Shown: one piece after another, positions 3,433 through 26,018 of the stretch | Layout: every line of letters begins with the position of its first letter | How positions within the stretch are numbered: the stretch's first letter is position 1 | Source: a virus | Length of the DNA stretch: 36,053 bases | Virus record (IMG/VR): IMGVR_UViG_3300017757_000048 | Location: 1-36,053 of that record | Direction: 5' to 3' (one strand) | Notes under the pieces: generated by a model | Seen by the model: only the letters and a program-made list of their open reading frames with translations | Database searches by the model: none | What the model was told of the DNA's origin: nothing | Translations under genes and position numbers: made by a program

Positions 3433-4496
3433 GCAATTCTTATACATCGCCTCCAGTGTTAGTTGACCCTAGCAGAGTCACAGCAGGCTTGACTCTAAGA
3501 ACAACAGAGATCTCAAAACTTGGAGAACTTGAAAACTATTCTTTTGCTCTTGGTGGTTGTGTTGATGTTGTGGCGCAAAGTTGGGGGAATACTGTTTTTA
3601 GATCAGCAGCAACTTCAAAGACTGATCTTTGTCAGTGGTATATCCCAAGACCGAGCAACATACATAATACATTTAAGTTCTTCGTTTCGTGCCATAGGTC
3701 AGCAAGTGGAAATAAAGTTGGTGGACGTTTAACGTTTCCACTTTCCGGGAACACTTATGAGTCTGAGATTGTGATCACTGATACAAACAGATATGGAAGT
3801 GTTTTTGAAGAACTAACTATCTCAGTCACTGGCACAGAAACGGAAACATTTTGTAGGCTGACATTGTTTATAGAATGTTCAAGTGGCTTTGTAGAAATAG
3901 CAAATGTAAATGGTAGGTGGTCGCCTCTAAGCTCACCACTGACAACAGGAGTTCTTCAACAAGGTACAGATACATTCACACCACAAGGAATTAATAGACT
4001 TGGAGCTGACAGGCCTTTAAGTGCTCGATTTGGTGTAGAGACTATTAACAATATAACGACCATAAGAAAACGAGGCCGAACCTTATTCAATTGGTCGGGA
4101 GCTTTCAACACTATAAGCGGCAGCACCGAACCGGCTAAAGGTATAGGGACTTTCGACCTTGATTTGATGTATTCAATCGTGTCTTTGTTTGGTGGCATGA
4201 ATCAAATAGATGATCTGAACGTGGATGTATTTATCAATGTTGAGAATTATTCAAGTGGTACTTTTGAAGTAGATATATTTGGCTATAGATTAGCCATCGT
4301 TCAAAATGGTTGGAATAGCTATGGGTTGAGTTTAAGACTTAGTGAACTTGCAAACTATAGTCGAGATTTCAGACTATCTATGTACGAAGTTGGCTTGATG
4401 CCAACATCAAGAAATCAAGCGATCTTACTTGGTGATAATAATAAGATCACAAGCTCTCCAGTCTATATCAAAGGCTTGTCGATCATAGGAGTTTAA
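3429..4496 (+). CDS. Putative minor tail protein
   Basis: A 355-residue protein starting within the stop codon of its neighbour (ATGA). The sequence is beta-rich with many Ser/Thr/Asn and few charged clusters, as in tail-tip structural proteins. It contains Cys in CGGCV-like and CHRSA contexts but no clear metal site. No catalytic motif is visible. It is the second of four co-directional genes between the tape measure and the lysin, and probably belongs to the same tail-tip complex. I do not recognise a specific family. Confidence 0.5.
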   Translation: MSNSYTSPPVLVDPSRVTAGLTLRTTEISKLGELENYSFALGGCVDVVAQSWGNTVFRSAATSKTDLCQWYIPRPSNIHNTFKFFVSCHRSASGNKVGGRLTFPLSGNTYESEIVITDTNRYGSVFEELTISVTGTETETFCRLTLFIECSSGFVEIANVNGRWSPLSSPLTTGVLQQGTDTFTPQGINRLGADRPLSARFGVETINNITTIRKRGRTLFNWSGAFNTISGSTEPAKGIGTFDLDLMYSIVSLFGGMNQIDDLNVDVFINVENYSSGTFEVDIFGYRLAIVQNGWNSYGLSLRLSELANYSRDFRLSMYEVGLMPTSRNQAILLGDNNKITSSPVYIKGLSIIGV

Positions 4497-21451: not shown

Positions 21452-22825
21452 ATGAGTGAAATCAAACTAAATCCTTTACAGCTTGAAATCATGAGAAGCA
21501 TAACACGCAAGGACAAGGTTATTGCTGCTCGGTGTGGTTGGGGTTCGGGCAAGACTTCAGCTCTTGTATTCTCCATCCTTTACCTCTCCAAGACTCGCCC
21601 TGGTACTTCATCGCTATTGGTCACAGATACGACTCCAAGATATAACTCAGTCTTGATGCCAGAGATGGAGAAGTGGCTTGGTCCACTTGGTTGGACTTAT
21701 AACCACACCATGAAACAATGGACTGATAAACACACAGGGAGTCAAGTATGGTGTCGCAGTTACTTTCGACCGGGAACAAGAGAAGCGACTCACAATCCTC
21801 TTGAGGGCTTGAACGTAACAAGCGGAGTCTGCTTGATTGATGAATGTCAGACCTTGACTCAAGAGGTAGCTCATAAAGCTCTAGGTCGTTTAAGAGCAGG
21901 ACCAAGCCCAATCTTGATCTTAGTTGGCTTGCCTGTCGTTGATGCTTGGTGGGTCAACATGGCAGAGAATCAAGGACTCACACCTTTGTTTTTTAGTTCA
22001 TATGTCAACCAAGACAATCTTGCTGATGAATGGTTCGAGGCTACAAAGATGCTTCCTCCCGACGAGCGAGAAGCGATGATCATGAATAAGCCAAAGCCTC
22101 CAACCGGCTTGATATATTCTGAGTTCACCGAGGCTAGCCATGTCGTCAAAGATTGGCAGTATAAAGAAACCATGACAGGTCGTATCGCCATCGATTGGGG
22201 CTTCAGGAAACCAAGTGTGTTAATCATTGCGTATGATGATGAGCTTCAAGCTTCGGTCATCTGTCATGAGATCAATCCAAAGGAAGTTACAACTCAACAG
22301 CTCACCACTTTAATACTTGCCATCGCTTGGCCAAGGTCATTGAAAGATCAAGCTCCTGGTCCACGAATATGGTTAGATACTGGAGTGGCTGACAAGGCAG
22401 GGAAAGCAAGGAATGATCAAACAGGTCAAAGCGCTTTCCGAGTAATGAGACAATTACCACCGAGAGGACTTGGAGTTCCACTGAGACACACTACCGATCC
22501 AATCAAGGTCGATATACTCAATGGAGTCCAAAGACTTAAACGAGCATTAAACTCTAAACGTTATCTAGTCACCAAAGAAGTTTGGGACAAGGGAGAGCGA
22601 GCAAGTGGAAACAGTATAAGGAAAGCTATTCTTTCTTATGCTTGGGATAACAAAGAGCAGCCCAAAAAGGATGGTCGAGAGGATCCGCTTGACGCTCTCC
22701 GATATGACTGCATAACATTCAATTGGAATGAAAGCGCACTCGATAAACAATACAAGCCAAGAAGATCAGCAAGTGGTAAAGGTAGAAAAGTAAATGTCGG
22801 AGGCTCAAAGACAAGGAGTTTTTAA
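21452..22825 (+). CDS. Terminase large subunit
   Basis: A 457-residue packaging motor. Walker A is GWGSGKTS (residues 29 to 36) and Walker B is GVCLIDECQT (about 128 to 137, with the catalytic acidic pair). The C-terminal nuclease domain begins IAIDWGFRKPSVLIIAYD (about 245), where the Asp would bind metal, and includes the later EDPLDALRYD element usual near the end of TerL. The stop TAA overlaps the ATG of the second-frame open reading frame (TAATG) and lies one base before the GTG of the cytosine methyltransferase. Confidence 0.92.
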   Translation: MSEIKLNPLQLEIMRSITRKDKVIAARCGWGSGKTSALVFSILYLSKTRPGTSSLLVTDTTPRYNSVLMPEMEKWLGPLGWTYNHTMKQWTDKHTGSQVWCRSYFRPGTREATHNPLEGLNVTSGVCLIDECQTLTQEVAHKALGRLRAGPSPILILVGLPVVDAWWVNMAENQGLTPLFFSSYVNQDNLADEWFEATKMLPPDEREAMIMNKPKPPTGLIYSEFTEASHVVKDWQYKETMTGRIAIDWGFRKPSVLIIAYDDELQASVICHEINPKEVTTQQLTTLILAIAWPRSLKDQAPGPRIWLDTGVADKAGKARNDQTGQSAFRVMRQLPPRGLGVPLRHTTDPIKVDILNGVQRLKRALNSKRYLVTKEVWDKGERASGNSIRKAILSYAWDNKEQPKKDGREDPLDALRYDCITFNWNESALDKQYKPRRSASGKGRKVNVGGSKTRSF

Positions 22826-22827
22826 TG
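22805..22827. repeat. 23-bp direct repeat at the methyltransferase start
   Basis: Twenty-three bases including the AAGGAG box, T5AATG and start codon, identical to 23979 to 24001. The offset is 1174 bp, so the two copies flank the cytosine methyltransferase gene. Confidence 0.95.
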
Positions 22828-23922
22828 TGGATAATCCCAAAGAACTTACCCATATTTCATTATGCGCAGGATATGGAGGCATTGATTTTGGACTCTCAAG
22901 AACTCTCGGATCAATTAGAACAGTCTGTTTTGTGGAGATCGAAAGTTTCGCAATCAAAAACCTGGTCTCGAAGATTGAAAAGGGATTGCTCTCTTCAGCT
23001 CCTATATTCACAGACCTTAAAAAGTTCCCTTGGCCACTCTTTAATGGAAAAGTGGACATCCTCAGTGGAGGCTTCCCTTGTCAGCCTTTTAGCGTTGCCG
23101 GAAGAAAGCAAGGAGATCAAGACCCACGACACTTGTGGCCATACATCACAAAAGGAATTGAACAGTTGGGAAGACCTCCCATTGTTTTCTTCGAGAACGT
23201 TTCAGGAATCATCTCAAGTAAACTCAAAGGAAACGATTGGACAGACAGAGAGGGGACTTCAGTTTTGTTGCATGTCCTTAGAGAGCTGGAGAGATTGGGT
23301 TACAAAACAACGGCTGGCATATTCTCAGCGGCTGAAGTCGGTGCACCACACCAAAGAAAGAGAGTGTTTATTCTTGGTGTCAGAAATGAACTCAAACAGA
23401 GCGGAGTTGATTTTATCAATGAACTCATTAAGTCTAATCAATCAGACAGAGATACAACCTGGCCAGCATCAAGAGGGCAAAGACAGCACTGGCACGAACC
23501 ACCAAGAGTTACGATGGGCGACACCTTGCACGATGGATCACTTACCTCCAAAGAGTCAAGAAACACTAATGAGACAAGCGACAACAATACGCAAGGGCAG
23601 GAAAGCACCATCGAATCTAAGAGAGCAAGTAGACCCTGTGGCAATGGAAGTTTACAAAAAAGTGAAGTGGCCCACTCCAACAGCTGGAATGGAAATGAGA
23701 GAACTTGGTGCAAAAATAGATCATTTCAAGAGAAGACAAAGTTTGAAGAAACAAATAGGATTGCAAGGGACAATCACGCTAGACAGTCAGAAGTTTGTAG
23801 GAAATCTCAATCCTCGGTGGGTAGAGACACTCATGGGACTCCCAATTGGTTGGACTATGCCAAGCTTTTTAAATCCTGTGAAAGTAGAACAGATGAGCTT
23901 CGATTGCTCGGGAATGGAGTAG
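22825..23922 (+). CDS. Second-frame ORF inside the methyltransferase gene, possibly an overprinted gene
   Basis: A 365-codon frame starting at ATG 22825 (the ATGTG start overlaps the methyltransferase GTG), six bases after the shared AAGGAG and coupled to the TerL stop. It is +1 relative to the methyltransferase. Its translation is not random-looking: WATPCTMDHLPPKSQ (231 to 245), WPTPTA (282 to 287) and LNPRWVETLMGLPIGWT (328 to 344). From memory these recall motifs of phage proteins found with cytosine methyltransferases. Either the locus is dual-coding or the frame is conserved by constraint on the main gene. Expression is unproven. Confidence 0.45.
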   Translation: MWIIPKNLPIFHYAQDMEALILDSQELSDQLEQSVLWRSKVSQSKTWSRRLKRDCSLQLLYSQTLKSSLGHSLMEKWTSSVEASLVSLLALPEESKEIKTHDTCGHTSQKELNSWEDLPLFSSRTFQESSQVNSKETIGQTERGLQFCCMSLESWRDWVTKQRLAYSQRLKSVHHTKERECLFLVSEMNSNRAELILSMNSLSLINQTEIQPGQHQEGKDSTGTNHQELRWATPCTMDHLPPKSQETLMRQATTIRKGRKAPSNLREQVDPVAMEVYKKVKWPTPTAGMEMRELGAKIDHFKRRQSLKKQIGLQGTITLDSQKFVGNLNPRWVETLMGLPIGWTMPSFLNPVKVEQMSFDCSGME

Positions 23923-23978
23923 TTCCACAAACAGCTGGTAAAGCTTTCACTTTGTTATGGTATGAATTAATAAACTAA
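22827..23978 (+). CDS. C5-cytosine DNA methyltransferase
   Basis: A 383-residue enzyme that methylates cytosine C5 using S-adenosylmethionine. Motif I is ISLCAGYGGIDFG (10 to 22). Motif IV is GGFPCQPFS with catalytic Cys85. Motif VI is FFENVSG with Glu-Asn-Val at 123 to 125. Motif VIII is QRKRVF at about 176. Motifs IX/X follow as RLLGNGVVPQTAGKAF near the end. The region about 190 to 345 is hydrophilic and should hold target recognition. The start is GTG 22827, eight bases after AAGGAG. The same DNA is open in a second frame. It probably protects phage DNA from host restriction. Confidence 0.9.
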   Translation: MDNPKELTHISLCAGYGGIDFGLSRTLGSIRTVCFVEIESFAIKNLVSKIEKGLLSSAPIFTDLKKFPWPLFNGKVDILSGGFPCQPFSVAGRKQGDQDPRHLWPYITKGIEQLGRPPIVFFENVSGIISSKLKGNDWTDREGTSVLLHVLRELERLGYKTTAGIFSAAEVGAPHQRKRVFILGVRNELKQSGVDFINELIKSNQSDRDTTWPASRGQRQHWHEPPRVTMGDTLHDGSLTSKESRNTNETSDNNTQGQESTIESKRASRPCGNGSLQKSEVAHSNSWNGNERTWCKNRSFQEKTKFEETNRIARDNHARQSEVCRKSQSSVGRDTHGTPNWLDYAKLFKSCESRTDELRLLGNGVVPQTAGKAFTLLWYELIN

Positions 23979-24001
23979 TCAAAGACAAGGAGTTTTTAAT
24001 G
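23979..24001. repeat. 23-bp direct repeat at the cyclase start
   Basis: Second exact copy, supplying the ribosome binding site and ATG of the cyclase gene. The cassette between copies could have been inserted or could be lost by recombination across the repeat. Confidence 0.95.
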
Positions 24002-24823
24002 GAGTTTATAGAAACTAAATTAGCAATCGTTCTTCTTGATCTTATAGGCTCAACTCAGTTTGTCCAATCGGTTGGCGCTATGAAGTCAGCTCAATGGCTC
24101 CAATATCATGATAGACTTGCAAGGTCTTTAATCTACCGTTTCAATGGTCGAGAGATAGACCGCTCTGATGGATTCCTCCTGAGCTTTGAGCGACCAATTG
24201 ACGCTGTAAACTTTGCTCTTACTTATCAAGAGACAATCCCACCAAAAACAAAGCTAGGTTGTCGGATTGGGATTCATTGGGGGAAGATAGTTGAAGTTAA
24301 GCAAGCTGAGATCTACACCATGACTGGAGCTAAGTCTGTCGAGCTTGAGGGAGTGGCCAAGAACATCTCAGCTCGGACAATGTCAATCTGTCAAGCCGGT
24401 CAAGTGCTGCTTACTCTTGAAGCCATGAAAGCTATCCAAGGACGAACTAATAGTTTCACACCAAGAGGAACTAGATATGCTTGTGTTGGTGAATACAGAT
24501 TCAAAGGAGTCAAGGAGACTCAAATCATTTATGCCGTTGGTTCAACTATTGAATCTTTGCAACCTCCACCAAGTGGAAGCAAGGTCAAGCGAATCGGTGG
24601 ACCAGGTAAGATCAAGAGCAGAATAAGAGATCGAAAATTGAAAGAATGGATTGTTTGGTTCTTGGTTCGTTATTGCTTGATAATGATCTTTTATATGATC
24701 TCAACTCTTATCCCAATCGTGATCAATCCTTACACTCGGAAGATGAATGAGCTTGATGACTTGTTTCATTGGGTTGATTATATAGTTGACTTCATAGCTA
24801 TGTTTTTAGGAGGTGTATTTTAG
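23999..24823 (+). CDS. Class III nucleotidyl cyclase with C-terminal membrane segments
   Basis: A 274-residue protein. Residues about 8 to 185 form a class III cyclase domain: metal-binding Asp14 (LLDLIGST) and Asp57 (RSDGFLLSF), the RIGIHWGKI strand (89 to 97), and the transition-state Asn122/Arg126 pair (NISAR) followed by GQVLLT. The domain end is YRFKGVKETQIIYAVG. The usual substrate-selecting Lys appears as Ile53 and the Asp as Glu115 by my manual alignment, so the nucleotide specificity is open. Residues about 215 to 245 and 260 to 274 look membrane-embedded. Such an enzyme is unusual in a small phage. Confidence 0.8.
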   Translation: MEFIETKLAIVLLDLIGSTQFVQSVGAMKSAQWLQYHDRLARSLIYRFNGREIDRSDGFLLSFERPIDAVNFALTYQETIPPKTKLGCRIGIHWGKIVEVKQAEIYTMTGAKSVELEGVAKNISARTMSICQAGQVLLTLEAMKAIQGRTNSFTPRGTRYACVGEYRFKGVKETQIIYAVGSTIESLQPPPSGSKVKRIGGPGKIKSRIRDRKLKEWIVWFLVRYCLIMIFYMISTLIPIVINPYTRKMNELDDLFHWVDYIVDFIAMFLGGVF

Positions 24824-25537
24824 ATGCAATATATGGGAGGAAAATCAAGAATAGCTTATAAATTAGTCAATTTTATGAGCTTAGAACGTCTTGAAAATAT
24901 GACTTGGGTAGAGCCTTTTATGGGTTCTGGTAAGGTATTGGAAAAAGTCAAAGACCCTAGAATAGGTTCAGACATAAACAGTGAGTTGATCTCTTTGTTT
25001 AAGATGATACAAGAGGGATACGAACCACCTAAAATTGTAACTGAAAGTTTTTATAATTTAGTCAAAAAAAATCCTCATATTTACCCGGAACATTTAAGAG
25101 GCTTCTTGAGTTTTGCTTGTTCTTTTGGTGGACATCGATGGGATGCATTTGCAAAGAACAAAAGAAATCACAATTTTGCTTTAAGTGGTTTTAGATCATT
25201 AATGAAACAAAAGCCACTTTTAAAAGGTGTCAAGTTATTATCAACAGATTACAAGTCTTTAAAATTAACGGAACGATCTTTGATTTATTGTGATCCACCT
25301 TATAAGAATACTAAAGGTTATGGATTTAAGTTTGATCATGATGACTTCTATCAATGGTGTATAAACAAGAAAAATGATGGTCACTTAGTTTTTATTAGTG
25401 AATATAACGCACCTTTTGATTTAGCATGGTCACAAGAAGTAAGTATTTCTTTTGATGCAAAATCGAACAAGCAAAAAAAGACAGAGAACCTTTATAGAGT
25501 CCATGAAAAATCAAAATTTAAATTAATTACCTATTGA
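24824..25537 (+). CDS. D12-class N6-adenine DNA methyltransferase (Dam-like)
   Basis: A 237-residue enzyme that transfers a methyl group to adenine N6. The S-adenosylmethionine motif is WVEPFMGSGKV (about 28 to 38), preceded by MQYMGGKSRIAYKL at the N-terminus. The catalytic motif is CDPPYKNT with Asp-Pro-Pro-Tyr at 157 to 160. Order and spacing suit the D12/alpha class. Its DNA looks more AT-rich than the flanking genes, which hints at recent acquisition. It begins directly after the cyclase stop. Likely role: protection against restriction or marking of phage DNA. Confidence 0.88.
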   Translation: MQYMGGKSRIAYKLVNFMSLERLENMTWVEPFMGSGKVLEKVKDPRIGSDINSELISLFKMIQEGYEPPKIVTESFYNLVKKNPHIYPEHLRGFLSFACSFGGHRWDAFAKNKRNHNFALSGFRSLMKQKPLLKGVKLLSTDYKSLKLTERSLIYCDPPYKNTKGYGFKFDHDDFYQWCINKKNDGHLVFISEYNAPFDLAWSQEVSISFDAKSNKQKKTENLYRVHEKSKFKLITY

Positions 25538-25550
25538 TTAGAGGTGTCTT

Positions 25551-26018
25551 TTGAACGCTGTTGAAGATAGAGAAGAGGCCAAAGAGTTTTCCAAGGATGT
25601 CAAAGCCCGTCGGGGGTGGTGGTTCTCTGTCATGTTCTTGGTCTTAATAGTTGTCCTGATCTTATTCCTGACTTATGTGAAGATCGTTGACGAAAACCGA
25701 GATGTCTTAGTTGGGATACTTGGCGTGATCACTGGATCAATCTCTTCAATGGTTGCTATTGCGAGCGGTCGTGATCCATCCGAAGTGGAAGAACTGAAAG
25801 ACAAGTTGGCCTCAGCAAATGCAGACAGAGAAGCTTTGATCGCTAGACTTAGAGACGCACAAATACAAATGCAATTGAAGACCGACCAACTCATGGAGCT
25901 TCAAGGAGCTGTCATTGACAAGCTTTCCTTATTCAGTGGACAGAAACCAATCAAGACAAGATCAGTTGATCAAGTGATCCTTGATCCGAATGTTGAGCAG
26001 TGGATTCCTAAAAAGTAG
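25551..26018 (+). CDS. Membrane protein with coiled coil, holin-like candidate
   Basis: A 155-residue protein starting at TTG 25551 after GAGGTG. Two hydrophobic stretches (about residues 23 to 44, and 52 to 71, DVLVGILGVITGSISSMVAI) are followed by a coiled coil (about 75 to 120). The second segment resembles, from memory, hydrophobic parts of some phage holins. It is the last gene before a strong terminator. Whether it is a lysis protein or a partner of the membrane-tailed cyclase cannot be decided from sequence. Confidence 0.5.
   Translation: MNAVEDREEAKEFSKDVKARRGWWFSVMFLVLIVVLILFLTYVKIVDENRDVLVGILGVITGSISSMVAIASGRDPSEVEELKDKLASANADREALIARLRDAQIQMQLKTDQLMELQGAVIDKLSLFSGQKPIKTRSVDQVILDPNVEQWIPKK

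Follow-up and report, generated by a model that had tools for sequence, protein, structure and literature searches.

The C5-cytosine DNA methyltransferase locus of a virus recorded in IMG/VR very probably encodes a single enzyme as two polypeptides, which are translated from overlapping reading frames and associate into the active enzyme. The sequence examined is an IMG/VR virus record, and the window denotes the whole stretch of 36,053 nucleotides that was analysed. Selection acts on both frames, each frame dominates in a different region and motif IX of the methyltransferase lies in the second frame. The main-frame product (alpha) and the second-frame product (beta) most likely represent the catalytic and recognition subunits, respectively, of a heterodimeric C5 methyltransferase resembling M.EcoHK31I, except that here the frames overlap almost completely and share a start. 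Ribosomes at one AAGGAG would start either at an ATG, giving beta, or at a GTG two bases later, giving alpha. Alpha would provide the SAM-binding and catalytic core (motifs I–VIII) and motif X, joined via an unstructured linker, and beta would contribute motif IX together with the region of target recognition, which contains the W[PA]TP repeats. Paired, alpha and beta would form an active enzyme that methylates the phage DNA, as the chains of M.EcoHK31I do. We infer the use of both start codons, the pairing of the chains, their methylating activity and the target sequence.

Overlapping frames and their start

The gene for beta (plus strand, 22825–23922) extends for 365 codons from an ATG at 22825 to the stop at 23922, in the +1 frame of a C5 methyltransferase ORF at 22794–23978. 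The original prediction described this frame as open across about 1.1 kb, and the 365 codons are indeed present without a stop, compared with 6.8 stops expected from 20,000 synonymous shuffles preserving the main protein (p ~1e-4); about 1 in 10,000 shuffles lacked any second-frame stop. Read in its third frame, this stretch contains 32 stops. The peptides quoted in the prediction are found in the beta translation, and the association with phage methyltransferases given for them is correct. All 53 aligned beta homologues match PHROG 1008, 'DNA methyltransferase', a name that is silent on a recognition half in an overlapping frame. PHROG 1008 was evidently built at least partly from the second frame.

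Alpha (plus strand, 22827–23978) comprises 383 codons from its GTG and matches PF00145 with an E value of 1.9e-40. The upstream in-frame ATG at 22794 lies within the terminase gene, and the start conserved among homologues is the GTG at 22827. As predicted, the ATG and GTG overlap behind one Shine–Dalgarno-like AAGGAG (plus strand, 22813–22818), which precedes the ATGTG double start (plus strand, 22825–22829); the alpha GTG begins two bases after the beta ATG, and the start codons overlap by one base. ATGTG is found at the second-frame start in 76 of 83 loci, and the beta ATG and alpha GTG therefore use one leader; a Shine–Dalgarno-like site, loosely defined, lies upstream in 72 of the 83. This near-common start is not universal, since two loci from a sample chosen by the main frame (L116 and L170) contain stops in the N-terminal part of beta, with the recognition part open. 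Beta must therefore start internally in these loci, as in the coliphage and e15-type phages, where the beta start is located some codons within alpha.

A 23-base exact direct repeat, TCAAAGACAAGGAGTTTTTAATG, occurs at 22805–22827 and 23979–24001, its copies forming the leader and start of the methyltransferase gene and of the next gene. The second copy is missing from a close relative (L002), which has about 400 other bases in its place, and the repeat may be a trace of a past insertion or deletion.

The catalytic chain

The catalytic part of alpha (motifs I–VIII; plus strand, 22827–23378) is modelled by AlphaFold with a pLDDT mostly above 90 and gives Foldseek and HMM matches to the catalytic domains of HhaI, HaeIII and DNMT1. 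C5 motifs I–VIII, including PCQ, ENV and QxRxR, are present, and the PCQ, ENV and R.R columns are invariant in 53 homologues. Over the recognition region, alpha is a linker (plus strand, 23502–23903) that is predicted to be disordered (pLDDT <50, residues 226–359) and is open throughout the family. Its signature [MVL][AG][DNH][STPA] is forced through the genetic code by the W[PA]TP of the +1 frame. Motif X (GNxVxP) follows as LLGNGVVPQTAGKAF (plus strand, 23904–23975), containing LLGNGVVPQ, with the GN invariant in the 53 homologues, a pLDDT of 82–97 and a normal main-frame codon pattern.

C5 methyltransferases have the standard order of motifs I–VIII, variable region, motif IX and motif X. 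Motif IX is missing from alpha; the prediction erred in assigning every C5 motif to the main frame, which has motifs I–VIII and X but leaves motif IX to the second frame. Aligned with the single-chain enzymes of actinophages, alpha matches only their first 192 profile columns.

The probable recognition chain

Together, alpha and beta possess the motif IX of the C5 family, in beta and not in alpha. The sequence LNPRWVETLMGLPIGWT in beta (plus strand, 23806–23856) is identified as motif IX of a C5 methyltransferase by its hhalign alignment to the in-frame motif IX of actinophage methyltransferases, with E values of 1.1e-5 for the whole beta profile and 3.8e-7 for the motif alone. The short motif IX profile gave no match when compared with solved C5 methyltransferases. 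The recognition region of beta (plus strand, 23506–23787) contains the repeats WATPCTMD (23515–23538) and WPTPTA (23668–23685), follows a second-frame codon pattern and is in part modelled at pLDDT 80–92. The N-terminal part (plus strand, 22825–23376) lies over the alpha catalytic domain and resembled no known family in HMM searches; searches with beta against Pfam, NCBIfam and the PDB returned chance matches only.

The AlphaFold model of beta has a pTM of 0.27 and is confident only near residues 150–175, 230–280 and 330–345, and Foldseek found no fold match for this low-confidence model. Confidence restricted to the conserved blocks would fit a chain that folds with its partner, and a shallow alignment could also explain it.

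The actinophage enzymes provide the single-chain counterpart. In Mycobacterium phage Martik gp71 and Propionibacterium phage PFR1 Orf45, motifs I–VIII, LPTP repeats, 'RLSAxFxEWMMGxPxG' (motif IX) and motif X follow one another in one frame. These enzymes resemble alpha and beta together in motifs I–VIII, the TP repeats, the type of motif IX and motif X, but differ in having all of them in a single frame, and stops occur in their +1 frames at the chance rate.

Selection in the two frames

Substitutions were counted in non-redundant loci (69 or 70), and the codon-position figures are derived from close pairs. Main-frame codon positions 1, 2 and 3 differ at.066,.042 and.113 in the catalytic part, at.301,.199 and.234 in the recognition part and at.136,.067 and.302 in the motif X part that follows. 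The freest site of the recognition part is therefore the third position of beta. There, beta-frame fourfold sites diverge at 0.63, compared with 0.68 for free sites, and beta has 0 stops against 219 expected among 69 loci. The amino acids of alpha drift almost freely across this part, yet never to a stop (0 against 494 expected across the family). Over the N-terminal part of beta, the same 69 loci show 2 stops where 342 would be expected. The main-frame fourfold sites of the catalytic part change at 0.47 of the free rate (bootstrap 0.42–0.52, stop-prone contexts excluded), about half of the divergence outside the overlap, a comparison whose weak point is that the free-rate reference is the short stretch past the beta stop. 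From the codon-position, fourfold-site and stop patterns it thus follows that alpha rules the catalytic part and beta the recognition part, and that the N-terminal part of beta is also constrained.

Both frames are under purifying selection beyond chance openness and form a dual-coding pair; the second frame is a real coding frame. The openness in homologues and the constraint on both frames that the prediction called for were both observed, the former in both halves of beta in the 69 viral loci, the latter as slowed main-frame fourfold sites in the catalytic part and a second-frame codon pattern in the recognition part. Methyltransferase homologues with second-frame stops, which the prediction would have counted against a second gene, do exist among actinophage and canonical C5 methyltransferases, but they carry motif IX in the main frame and therefore support the division of the enzyme between two frames.

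There is hardly any chance that only the main frame is translated and that the second is open and similar through main-frame conservation. Second-frame products do enter databases as proteins in the manner of such shadows (K1ind2 ORF28, Ssp-JY39 and Cr-LKS3), but this reading is contradicted by the codon-shuffle tests, the second-frame codon pattern of the recognition region, the lowered main-frame synonymous change and the conserved ATG, and the single-frame relatives have +1 stops at the chance rate. A shadow and an unrelated overprint were both rejected on the shuffles, the codon pattern, the fourfold constraint, the actinophage stops and the motif IX alignment. Between the true overprinted gene and the conserved shadow originally proposed, the evidence supports the former. 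Nor has an unrelated protein simply been overprinted on an already complete methyltransferase, because the recognition half of the methyltransferase itself sits in the second frame.

Distribution of the arrangement

When viral contigs were scanned with three second-frame sequences, at least 557 relatives emerged, the best 80 of which were kept. Both frames are open from end to end in all 80 of these best relatives, with the second always at +1, and main-frame identities among them are mostly 35–60%. As these loci had been picked by the second frame, two further samples were drawn; the locus samples partly overlap. Among 80 loci picked by main-frame peptides only, 77 contain LNPxWVExLMG (motif IX) in the +1 frame. 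The third sample comprised 80 loci picked only by a DNA pattern for motif IX, 71 of them with enough upstream DNA; all 71 possess the catalytic domain, 67 in the expected frame, and the remaining four have an indel between the catalytic and recognition parts. Bacterial-genome loci with both parts agree with the two-frame arrangement in 14 of 14 cases.

In the four indel loci (L195, L211, L199 and L201) the catalytic domain is in another frame, and in L195 and L211 the indel is near a G-rich run directly after motif VIII. These indels represent either assembly errors or phase variation.

The indels near the junction in these four loci bear on programmed frameshifting, by which ribosomes would leave the alpha frame for that of beta once past motif VIII and return before motif X, yielding a normal monomer. 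The resulting order, motifs I–VIII in frame 0, target-recognition domain and motif IX in +1 and motif X in frame 0, matches a monomeric enzyme, and actinophages have versions in a single frame. We nevertheless consider frameshifting unlikely: it requires two shifts, no slippery site was identified, although the search for one was not systematic, and it leaves unexplained the openness of beta over the catalytic part (2 stops against 342), that of alpha over the recognition part (0 against 494) and the conserved beta ATG. The third sample also bears on whether beta is a separate overprinted protein of independent function, such as an inhibitor or a DNA-binding protein. Its separate start and the lack of a known family for its N-terminal part would suit this proposal, which we regard as quite improbable, as the methyltransferase chain of actinophages itself includes the motif IX and TP repeats seen in beta, and a catalytic domain accompanies motif IX in 71 of 71 motif-picked loci with enough upstream DNA.

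The two-frame arrangement is shared by phages that infect proteobacteria, Bacteroides, lactobacilli and cyanobacteria. Isolated phages with it include coliphages Bas70, K1ind2 and ESSI2, Salmonella phage epsilon15, Aeromonas AeroV_348, Rhodobacter RcKeef, Komagataeibacter phiKX1, Bacteroides BS-TP4 and BKO1-TP3, Lactobacillus Lc-Nu (with a variant motif), Cylindrospermopsis Cr-LKS3 and Synechococcus Ssp-JY39, as well as ctgrD200 and C75C1. Their GenBank annotations mostly give alpha alone, and beta alone in Ssp-JY39, Cr-LKS3 and phiKX1. Both frames are annotated in K1ind2, beta as a 'putative Mte8-like protein'; a functional description of 'Mte8-like' was looked for and not found. The impression that phiKX1 has beta without alpha proved wrong, the catalytic domain being present, unannotated, in the expected frame. 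No paper describing this two-frame phage family was found in the literature searched, which covered the field in part, most subscription journals lying outside it.

Two relatives have longer beta frames. At 4254–4707 in L002 the frame is about 150 codons longer than the beta of the window and has another W.TP unit (WHTPTTLD), and in L068 it extends more than 1,800 bases beyond the alpha stop.

Comparison with known systems

The smaller chain of M.EcoHK31I is reportedly encoded in another frame within the gene of the larger chain; beta likewise lies in a different frame inside the alpha gene, at +1, in the window and in related loci. M.EcoHK31I (YGGCCR; Lee, Kam and Shaw 1995) is a two-polypeptide C5 methyltransferase that, compared by its published description, shares the motif division of alpha and beta: its larger subunit contains motifs I–VIII and X and its smaller subunit motif IX (PMC3404938). 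The same division is found here, the larger chain having motifs I–VIII and X without IX and the smaller having IX. The phage proteins differ from M.EcoHK31I in that beta spans nearly all of the alpha gene and begins two bases earlier, and in that the family is phage-borne and widespread. The predicted target-recognition domain of M.EcoHK31I is in the larger subunit (PMC3404938), whereas in the phage it is apparently in beta, the recognition region being constrained in the beta frame and alpha being predicted to be disordered there.

M.AquI (CYCGRG) is also a C5 methyltransferase split over two polypeptides, its small subunit comprising the distal variable region and motifs IX and X (PMC3404938). 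In contrast, the catalytic chain of the phage enzyme retains motif X, and its two genes overlap in different frames. The methylase gene of phage ShiLan likewise encodes a further protein out of frame, an HNH endonuclease (PMC11855218); that insert is a homing endonuclease, whereas here both frames would supply parts of one enzyme.

Implications

A suspected annotation shadow would thereby become the second subunit of a methyltransferase, of which databases usually list only one of the two proteins. On balance, we favour a wider proposal in which a phage-wide class of C5 methyltransferases is obligately made as two subunits from a single stretch of DNA in two frames, and the ATGTG starts set the subunit stoichiometry. 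The N-terminal half of beta would then have arisen de novo by overprinting as a domain for pairing with alpha, and for many phage methyltransferases annotated as 'complete' the record would be missing the recognition subunit. A phage C5 methyltransferase cloned as an annotated single ORF is predicted to be inactive unless both frames are kept, and as codon optimisation would destroy beta, synthetic versions would fail. The locus combines a long same-strand overlap, homologues numbering in the hundreds, controls in the form of single-frame relatives and an assayable activity. Settings that allow overlapping-gene evolution to be measured together with the evolution of target-recognition domains are rare.

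Neighbouring genes

The next ORF (23999–24823) weakly matches a class III nucleotide cyclase domain, below the cut-off (PF00211, E 0.001), and has hydrophobic C-terminal segments; a cyclase-like gene is unusual for a phage. PADLOC gave no match for this ORF. It is followed by a D12-class adenine methyltransferase (24824–25537; PF02086), so that the phage has C5 and N6-adenine methyltransferases close together. Two genes past the cyclase-like ORF, a small ORF (25551–26018) has a weak, below-cut-off match to a SLATT-type effector domain with two transmembrane segments.
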